Shown here in pieces: positions 58,916-61,712 of a DNA stretch of 64,000 nt. The notes below the pieces were generated by a model. That model saw only the letters and a program-made list of their open reading frames with translations, was not told the DNA's origin and did no database searches. The stretch is from Streptomyces mangrovisoli (GTDB lineage Bacteria; Actinomycetota; Actinomycetes; Streptomycetales; Streptomycetaceae): contig NZ_LAVA02000005.1 of the NCBI RefSeq assembly GCF_000974985.2, positions 1-64,000 on the forward strand. The letters are read 5' to 3'. The stretch's first letter is position 1. Each line of letters opens with the position of its first letter. Both the position numbers and the translations under genes were made by a program.

Positions 58916-59848
58916 ATGCCTGCGAGCTACGCCTATCTGGGCCCCGAGGGCACCTTCACGGAGGTCGCCCTGCGTACGCTTCCCGAAGCGGCCACCCGGG
59001 AGCTGATCCCGTACGTGTCGGTGCAGTCCGCGCTGGACGCGGTGCGCGGCGGGGAGGCCGAAGCGGCGTTCGTGCCGATCGAGAACTCCGTCGAGGGCGG
59101 CATCACCGCCACGCTCGACGAACTCGTCGCGGGCAGCCCGCTGATGATCTACCGCGAGGTGCTGCTGTCCATCACCTTCGCGCTGCTGGTCAGGCCGGGC
59201 ACGCAGCTGACGGACATCAAGACGGTCTCCGCCCACCCCGCAGCCCAGCCGCAGGTGCGCAACTGGCTGCGGGCCAACCTGCCCGACGCCGTCTGGGAGT
59301 CCGCCGCCTCCAACGCGGACGCCGCCCGGCTGGTCCAGGAGGGCCGCTACGACGCCGCCTTCGCGGGCGAGTTCGCGGCCGCCCGGTACGGACTCGTGGC
59401 CCTGGAGAGCGGGATCCACGACGCGGAGAACGCGCAGACGCGCTTCGTCCTGGTGGGCCGCCCGGCCCGGCCCGCGGCCCCGACCGGCGCCGACAAGACG
59501 TCCGTCGTGCTCTGGCAGAACGACGACCACCCCGGTGGGCTGCGCGATCTGCTGGGCGAGTTCGCCACCCGCGGCATCAACCTGATGCTGCTCCAGTCGC
59601 GTCCGACCGGCGAGGGCATCGGCAACTACTGCTTCTGCGTCGACGCCGAGGGCCACATCTCCGACCGCAAGGTCGCCGAGGCGCTGACGGGCCTGAAGCG
59701 GATCTGTCTCCAGGTGCGTTTCCTGGGCTCCTATCCGCGGGCGGACATCACGCTCGACGAGGTGCGCGCCCCGCTGCCGGGAACCTCGGACGAGGAATTC
59801 GTGGCTGCCTCCGACTGGGTGGCGCGCTGCCAGGACGGGCGTTTCTAG
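58916..59848 (+). CDS. pheA: Prephenate dehydratase
   Basis: A 310-residue enzyme converting prephenate to phenylpyruvate for phenylalanine. The catalytic domain (about 5-185) has YLGPEGTFTEVAL, PIENSVEGGI and the active-site TRF in NAQTRFVLVG. The C-terminal ACT domain (about 198-280) binds phenylalanine for feedback control, with GGLRDLLGEFATRGINLM and QSRP in place of the usual ESRP. GAGGAC precedes ATG. Confidence 0.96.
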   Translation: MPASYAYLGPEGTFTEVALRTLPEAATRELIPYVSVQSALDAVRGGEAEAAFVPIENSVEGGITATLDELVAGSPLMIYREVLLSITFALLVRPGTQLTDIKTVSAHPAAQPQVRNWLRANLPDAVWESAASNADAARLVQEGRYDAAFAGEFAAARYGLVALESGIHDAENAQTRFVLVGRPARPAAPTGADKTSVVLWQNDDHPGGLRDLLGEFATRGINLMLLQSRPTGEGIGNYCFCVDAEGHISDRKVAEALTGLKRICLQVRFLGSYPRADITLDEVRAPLPGTSDEEFVAASDWVARCQDGRF

Positions 59849-59902: not shown

Positions 59903-59937
59903 GTATGTTTCCGGACGGTCCTACCTGCATATTGTGG

Positions 59938-60250
59938 TTATCCACAGGAGTTATCCACAGGGCCGCTTCTCGACCTGGGGACAAGTCGACAAGCAAGGGC
60001 CACTCAGTCGACAAATCCGCCTCGGGCGGCCCGACAGGGGCCACGCCACACGGGTCACCCTTCGTCCCTTCGTTTCCTTTGGTTCACCATATGGAGCGAC
60101 CTTTTTCCACCCGAATGCGAGCTTCACGCCGGTTTACACCGGGAATTCGTCGGTACCCGCCGAACTACCGGAGTGATCAATTCCGATATCCACAGATCGT
60201 CCACACACCCTGTGGATAACTCCTCCGGAGCGGTGCCCGGCTGTGGACAA
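59938..60250. promoter_or_regulatory. Cluster of six DnaA boxes
   Basis: Within 313 bp are TTATCCACA at 59938-59946 and 59951-59959, ATATCCACA at 60186-60194 and TCGTCCACA at 60197-60205 (all plus), and TTATCCACA at 60211-60219 and TTGTCCACA at 60242-60250 (minus). The last four lie in 65 bp and are closely spaced like boxes in oriC. The region between pheA and serS has no gene. There is no DnaN or DnaA gene, so this is not oriC itself but a titration or regulatory cluster. Confidence 0.8.
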
Positions 60251-60434
60251 CGACCCCCTCAAATCCCGGACCGCACAAGGGATGTGGGTCAACCCGCCGC
60301 CGCGCCCCTGCCTCCTCCCGGGGAGCGGGACCCACTTTATTGACACAGAGGGCAAATGCCGCATAACCGAACGTAAGCGGCGGTTCGGAATAGTGAGTCG
60401 TGAGCGATGACCACGCACCGGTAGCCTTGACCGC

Positions 60435-61712
60435 GTGATTGACCTTCGCCTGCTCCGTGAGGACCCCGACCGTGTGCGCGCCTCGCAGCGCGCCCGTGGA
60501 GAGGACGTCGCGCTCGTCGACTCTCTCCTCTCCGCCGACGAGCGGCGCAGGTCGTCCGGCGTCCGCTTCGACGAGCTGCGCGCCGAGCAGAGGACGCTCG
60601 GCAAGCTCGTCGCCAAGGCGTCCGGTGACGAGAAGGCCGAGCTGCTGAAGAGGGCCCAGCAGCTCGCCGCCGACGTCAAGACCGCCGACGCCGAGCGCGA
60701 CGCGGCCGACACCGAGACCCAGGAGCTGCTGCTCCAGCTCGGCAACCTCGTCCACCCCGACGTGCCCGTCGGCGGCGAGGAGGACTTCGTCACCCTCGAG
60801 ACGCACGGCACGATCCGCGACTTCGGCGCCGAGGGCTTCGAGCCCAAGGACCACCTGGAGCTCGGCCAGATCCTCGGCGCGATCGACGTGGAGCGCGGCG
60901 CCAAGGTCTCCGGCTCGCGGTTCTACTTCCTGACCGGCGTGGGCGCCCTGCTGGAGCTCGCCCTCGTCAACGCGGCGATCGCCCAGGCGACCGCGGCCGG
61001 CTTCACGCCGATGCTGACCCCCGCCCTGGTGCGCCCCCAGTCGATGGCGGGCACCGGCTTCCTCGGCCAGGCGGCGCAGGACGTCTACCACCTCGACAAG
61101 GACGACCTGTACCTGGTCGGCACGTCGGAGGTGCCGCTGGCGGCCTACCACATGGACGAGATCATCGAGGCGGACCGCCTGCCGCTGCGCTACGCGGGCT
61201 TCTCGCCCTGCTTCCGCCGCGAGGCCGGTTCGCACGGCAAGGACACCAAGGGCATCTTCCGCGTCCACCAGTTCGACAAGGTGGAGATGTTCACCTACGT
61301 CCTCCCCGAGGACTCGCAGGACGAGCACAAGCGCCTGCTGGAGTGGGAGAAGCAGTGGCTGACCTCGCTGGAGCTGCCGTTCCGGGTGATCGACGTCGCC
61401 ACCGGTGACCTCGGCTCCTCGGCGTCGCGCAAGTTCGACTGCGAGGCGTGGATCCCGACCCAGGGCAAGTACCGCGAGCTGACGTCGACGTCGGACTGCA
61501 CCGAGTTCCAGTCCCGCCGGCTCCAGATCCGGGTCCGCGACGGCAAGCAGGTCCGCCCGCTGGCCACGCTCAACGGCACCCTGTGCGCCGTACCGCGCAC
61601 GATCGTGGCGATCCTGGAGAACCACCAGCAGGCCGACGGCTCGGTGTGGGTCCCCGAGGTGCTGCGCCCGTACCTCGGCGGCCGGGAGGTCCTGGAGCCG
61701 GTGTCCAAGTGA
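60435..61712 (+). CDS. serS: Seryl-tRNA synthetase
   Basis: A 425-residue class II synthetase. The N-terminal coiled coil (about 25-105) grips the long variable arm of tRNA-Ser. Motif 2 ([14 protein letters not shown]), the TSEVPLA serine loop and motif 3 ([11 protein letters not shown]) are present. It charges the three serine tRNAs found here. A TAGCCT hexamer ending 7 bases before GTG suggests a leaderless message. GTGA overlap joins it to the HAD gene. Confidence 0.97.

Follow-up and report, generated by a model that had tools for sequence, protein, structure and literature searches.

Replication control exerted from outside oriC has been well dissected only in Escherichia coli and, less so, in Bacillus subtilis. 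In Streptomyces coelicolor, three clusters of DnaA boxes were reportedly named D78, H24, and H69 after cosmids; D78 is said to be the cluster of highest affinity, and its deletion reportedly raised the origin-to-end ratio. Like the locus analysed here, these are clusters of TTRTCCACA sites that lie outside oriC in the oriC-centred part of the chromosome. The S. coelicolor clusters (Smulczyk-Krawczyszyn et al., 2006, J. Bacteriol. 188:6184, cited by PMC4585315 and PMC5742627) have been called analogous to E. coli datA by reviewers (PMC5742627; PMC10950094). The datA locus likewise carries DnaA boxes of conserved spacing in non-coding DNA away from oriC; it has no sequence relation to the Streptomyces element, however. 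Clusters near oriC in B. subtilis also lie outside the origin and, according to reviews, repress untimely initiation (Okumura et al., 2012, cited in PMC5742627), but they differ from the Streptomyces element in both loci and architecture. E. coli DARS1 and DARS2 resemble it in that each has a few DnaA boxes whose spacing is conserved (PMC4585315). Their effect differs, however: initiation is promoted by the DARS loci, which reactivate DnaA, and is reportedly repressed by the Streptomyces clusters.

The locus compared with these systems here lies in a 64,000-nt stretch of Streptomyces mangrovisoli DNA, hereafter the window, which forms the start of its contig (C145). A pattern scan of the window found six NNNTCCACA boxes between 59938 and 60250 (59938+, 59951+, 60186+, 60197+, 60211−, and 60242−), four of which, two on each strand, fall within 60186–60250. 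The initial annotation, which had reported six Streptomyces-type boxes in about 310 bp, four of them in 65 bp with mixed orientation, was thus correct in number and arrangement; its Y-Y-N-TCCACA form was too narrow, as ATATCCACA breaks the literal YYN while fitting the general 9-mer NNNTCCACA. The stretch is also gene-free, as had been stated: the cluster falls inside a 586-bp gap in the ORF table, between the stop of pheA at 59848 and the GTG start of serS at 60435. The upstream neighbour, pheA, encodes prephenate dehydratase (58916–59848, plus strand; Pfam PDT and ACT), and the downstream neighbour, serS, encodes seryl-tRNA synthetase (60435–61712, plus strand; orthologs by sequence). Rfam gave no structured-RNA match at the cluster, and tRNAs were its sole matches across the window. 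Just ahead of serS, the hexamer TAGCCT (60422–60427, plus strand) is a nearly invariant block in the alignment of 80 Streptomyces loci, and by its likeness to the Streptomyces −10 consensus it is probably the serS −10 element. Its end, 8 nt short of the GTG, suggests that serS mRNA is leaderless or has a very short leader.

Column conservation across the 80 Streptomyces loci, which were retrieved via serS, delimits a composite element of about 340 bp (59914–60252) made of two arms and a central block. Every one of these loci holds 4–8 NNNTCCACA boxes in the same layout. The initial annotation had named the absence of the boxes from close relatives that keep the serS spacing as an observation that would speak against it; the opposite was seen, at 80 of 80 loci. 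In addition to the six boxes, the same conserved element in S. mangrovisoli holds a seventh near-box, TTGTCCCCA, and two TTGTCGACT sites.

The aligned left arm reads TTATCCACA, 4 bp, TTATCCACAGG, then CTGGGGACAAGTCGACA, then GTCGACAAATC. In S. mangrovisoli its boxes are L1 (TTATCCACA; 59938–59946, plus strand), which is aligned across loci, L2 (again TTATCCACA; 59951–59959, plus strand), which starts 13 bp past L1, and the variant L3 (TTGTCCCCA; 59976–59984, minus strand), which starts 25 bp past L2 within the conserved CTGGGGACAAGTCGACA and forms a converging pair with it. Two copies of a GTCGACAA motif follow, at 59985–59992, where GTCGACA is invariant in 39 aligned sequences, and at 60007–60014, where the motif is nearly invariant in the same set. 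Both copies (59985–60014) are conserved more strictly than several of the DnaA boxes. The first copy, which reads TTGTCGAC on the minus strand, may be either a weak DnaA box or the site of another protein. A search for a second GTCGACAA pair near oriC of the S. mangrovisoli genome found none.

Between the arms, the central block has the consensus GTCACCCTTCGTCCACC.TTTCC, and beyond it lies a conserved TTTCCACCCGAA block that contains a weak box, TTTTCCACC (60103–60116, plus strand). The right arm is laid out as a TCGGAATGATCAATTCCGA palindrome, TCCACAG, CACA.CCTGTGGATAAC, and then CTGTGGACAACC. The palindrome, which is imperfect and for which TCGGAATGATCAATTCCGA is the majority form, occupies 60168–60186 in S. 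mangrovisoli and adjoins R1 (ATATCCACA; 60186–60194, plus strand), whose first bases vary among loci while TCCACAG is invariant. R1 pairs with R3 (TTATCCACA; 60211–60219, minus strand), which starts 25 bp further on; between them lies R2 (TCGTCCACA; 60197–60205, plus strand), found in only part of the loci, and the arm closes with R4 (TTGTCCACA; 60242–60250, minus strand).

We could recognise both arms, each with its converging pair of boxes, in 144 of 151 sequences. With offsets of 22–28 bp allowed in the search, the start-to-start offset of the right-arm pair was 25 bp in 144/144, and that of the left-arm pair (L2–L3) was 25 bp in 140/144 and 24 bp in the other four. The distance between the arms was 256–261 bp in 116 of 142 sequences, while the distance from the right arm to serS ranged from 91 to 297 bp across loci. 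Thus, the internal geometry is held, including, as in datA, a conserved spacing between boxes, and the spacing to serS is not. Most exceptions in the inter-arm distance are off by about one or two helical turns (268–273 and 280–281 bp, with changes near ±10 and 20). Distances from the right arm to serS also shift mostly in steps of about 11 bp, and those from pheA to the left arm do so more weakly; the steps in the flanks could stem from helical coupling or from a bias in mutation. Because the flanks step similarly, we dropped helical phasing as proof of looping between the arms and regard the periodicity between them as no more than suggestive; that the distance between the arms varies so little is the firmer point.

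The element also keeps its place on the chromosome. In S. mangrovisoli, dnaA shares the contig and lies near position 134,715, some 74.5 kb from the cluster, and a candidate oriC, dense with DnaA boxes, lies behind dnaA at 137,002–137,574, about 77 kb from the cluster. Cluster and dnaA were ~73–96 kb apart in 20 genomes that are complete or nearly so and ~74–100 kb apart in 13 named Streptomyces. With S. mangrovisoli added, the cluster lies in the oriC-centred segment in 34 genomes, at ~73–100 kb from dnaA. In the genomes compared, it is always on the same side of dnaA and in the same relative orientation.

Across the family, at E ≤ 0.01, a left-arm profile matched 366 of 395 Streptomycetaceae genomes and 13 of 17 genera, and the right arm was found in all 20 genomes tested for it. 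The serS loci of 15 other Streptomycetaceae genera mostly carry a cluster upstream of serS, with lineage-specific variants; among the 15 inspected, three (g2, g5, and g15) showed no cluster at serS, and g10 has a different arrangement. In other families of Actinomycetes, none of 19 serS loci had a box cluster (a twentieth offered 40 bp of upstream sequence only). In two genera (g3 and g4), a polysaccharide deacetylase gene intervenes, and the cluster, its core geometry kept, lies 1.1–1.4 kb upstream of serS. In S. indicus, ~375–400 bp containing the entire element are inverted relative to pheA and serS, whose ends are unflipped; within the 660 bp that precede serS, the inverted stretch lies at about 150–560 bp.

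Taken by its sequence and its conservation, the element is a real, functional-looking cluster of predicted DnaA-binding sites. Most likely it is a dedicated DnaA-binding locus that would lower the DnaA available, or active, for oriC. Since serS (SCO3961) is, we presume, on S. coelicolor cosmid D78, the S. mangrovisoli locus is the probable D78 ortholog. The suggestion in the initial annotation that the cluster titrates DnaA and tunes initiation gains from its proximity to oriC, its conservation throughout the family, and its tolerance of inversion, which together fit such a role. We infer DnaA binding in S. mangrovisoli, an activity in titration or inactivation, looping between the arms, and identity with D78 from these comparisons. 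In the mechanism that we propose, DnaA would fill each arm cooperatively, by way of the converging pair 25 bp apart and the boxes that flank it, and may also bridge one arm to the other, so that the intervening DNA forms a loop. The features described fit a locus that would act by virtue of where it lies and of its internal geometry. The locus would reduce the amount of DnaA at the disposal of oriC, or its activity, and, being duplicated soon after initiation, would help to delay the next round. A lone box is bound only weakly by S. coelicolor DnaA (PMC4285127), as one would expect if boxes must act in pairs. We have not seen the fixed two-arm architecture, the natural inversion, the satellite cluster 8.6 kb away described below, or the match of the central block to an ScbR2 site described before, and these features are apparently new. 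As an element found family-wide, it offers a defined and easily mutated target in Streptomyces, through its arms, its 25-bp pairs, its central block, and its natural inversion.

Simple titration leaves the invariant non-box motifs (the GTCGACAA copies, the palindrome, and the central block) unexplained. These motifs, between and beside boxes of fixed internal spacing, would be expected of a site that, like datA or DARS, switches the nucleotide state of DnaA instead of acting as a passive sink: a further protein, IHF-like or of another kind, would be recruited by the extra motifs, and together they would drive ATP hydrolysis by DnaA or release of ADP. In E. coli, both the sequence and the spacing of the boxes are kept in datA and DARS, and IHF is required by datA and by DARS2 (PMC4585315). 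However, the conserved spacing also fits simple cooperative binding. We regard nucleotide switching as a tentative possibility and do not favour it over a locus that holds DnaA away from oriC.

The central block may have a partner of another kind. SCO3961, which is serS, is in the list of ChIP-seq targets of the antibiotic-sensing regulator ScbR2 in S. coelicolor and was confirmed by EMSA (Li et al., 2015; PMC4595836). The possible ScbR2 site given for serS in Table 2 of that paper, AGGCCACCCTTCGTCCACCTGTTTCTTG, is a prediction from a motif rather than a footprint at serS (PMC4595836), and by sequence match it corresponds to the block at the centre of the DnaA element. Its positional equivalent in S. 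mangrovisoli, GGGTCACCCTTCGTCCCTTCGTTTCCTT (60052–60079, plus strand), differs from it at 8 of 28 positions. A match with at most 9 mismatches in 28 was present at 57 of 81 loci, a level of match that 3 of 200 shuffles reach. The exact published site occurs once among the 393 genomes of the genus sampled; there (G236) it lies upstream of serS, between the two arms of this element, 35 bp past the left one. In S. indicus, an ScbR2-type block is inside the inverted element, on the minus strand. We rejected an ScbR2-type block outside Streptomyces, as the 11–13 mismatches in 28 found in other genera are at chance level.

This overlap suggests that ScbR2 or a paralog might act on the DnaA complex or be affected by it. 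One could go further and imagine the element as a composite switch. A TetR-type receptor for antibiotics or gamma-butyrolactones (ScbR2 or a paralog), seated between DnaA-filled arms, would alter the looping of the arms or the quantity of DnaA held, and signals from outside the cell would thereby tune initiation; we consider this speculative and rather unlikely. If it holds, the ScbR2 target listed under serS would be a site of replication control and not a serS promoter site, with which the unchanged serS mRNA would be consistent (0.947-fold in an S. coelicolor scbR2 mutant; PMC4595836). The link between ScbR2 and DnaA would then explain how a bound site can leave serS expression as it was, and a central ScbR2-type site acting on the DnaA arms would tie antibiotic or hormone signalling to chromosome replication.

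The same report of ScbR2 bound upstream of serS (PMC4595836) could be read in favour of the boxes being a DnaA-responsive serS operator, or a terminator-proximal control of pheA, that couples translation capacity to replication. The initial annotation had given control of serS or pheA the same weight as titration. In most genomes the element is 170–500 bp upstream of the serS promoter, and the ~11-bp steps between the right arm and serS would allow a degree of coupling to its transcription. Yet about 170 bp separate the last box from the probable −10 element downstream, the distance to serS is as loose as 91–297 bp, and the nearly unaltered serS mRNA in the scbR2 mutant is hardly what an operator would predict. 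An operator would be expected to hold a fixed place and direction with respect to its promoter; the inversion of the whole element in S. indicus and the gene that separates it from serS by 1.1–1.4 kb in two genera indicate that it is not simply a serS operator. The balance struck by the initial annotation has therefore shifted: direct control of serS is less likely than titration, and we judge the operator reading improbable.

Finally, the intergenic region is poorer in GC than the window (0.61 vs. 0.73), so that boxes might have gathered in AT-richer DNA by accident. Dinucleotide shuffles of the 586-bp region (n = 20,000) gave a mean of 0.30 NNNTCCACA sites and a maximum of 4, and six were never reached; shuffles of the whole window (n = 200) gave at most 3 sites per 313 bp. 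The remaining ~63.7 kb of the window hold 13 NNNTCCACA sites. The genome as a whole has 58 TTRTCCACA sites, compared with 12 of a reversed control pattern, and 4 of the 58 are within the 313 bp of the pheA–serS cluster, which gathers several boxes of the high-affinity type in non-coding DNA outside oriC. Given these shuffles, and a cluster kept in hundreds of independent assemblies, we rule out chance clustering and consider an accident of base composition or assembly extremely improbable.

Smaller groups of boxes occur elsewhere in the genome. A satellite cluster 8.6 kb from the main one and outside the window (C145:68882–68935; L083:4882–4935) consists of TTGTCCACA on the plus strand, 25 bp, TTATCCACA on the minus strand, 20 bp, and TGATCCACA on the minus strand. 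It repeats the converging 25-bp geometry with one further box and lies upstream of a gene of the KptA/Tpt1 RNA 2'-phosphotransferase family. Weak matches to an R1 profile were found 8.5–11.5 kb oriC-ward of the main cluster in 10 of 20 genomes. A five-box cluster on another contig (C123:5091–5415; L143) is situated between a rhomboid-family gene and a neighbourhood of DUF881-like, sortase, and trpG-like genes, and may be of the S. coelicolor H69 type.
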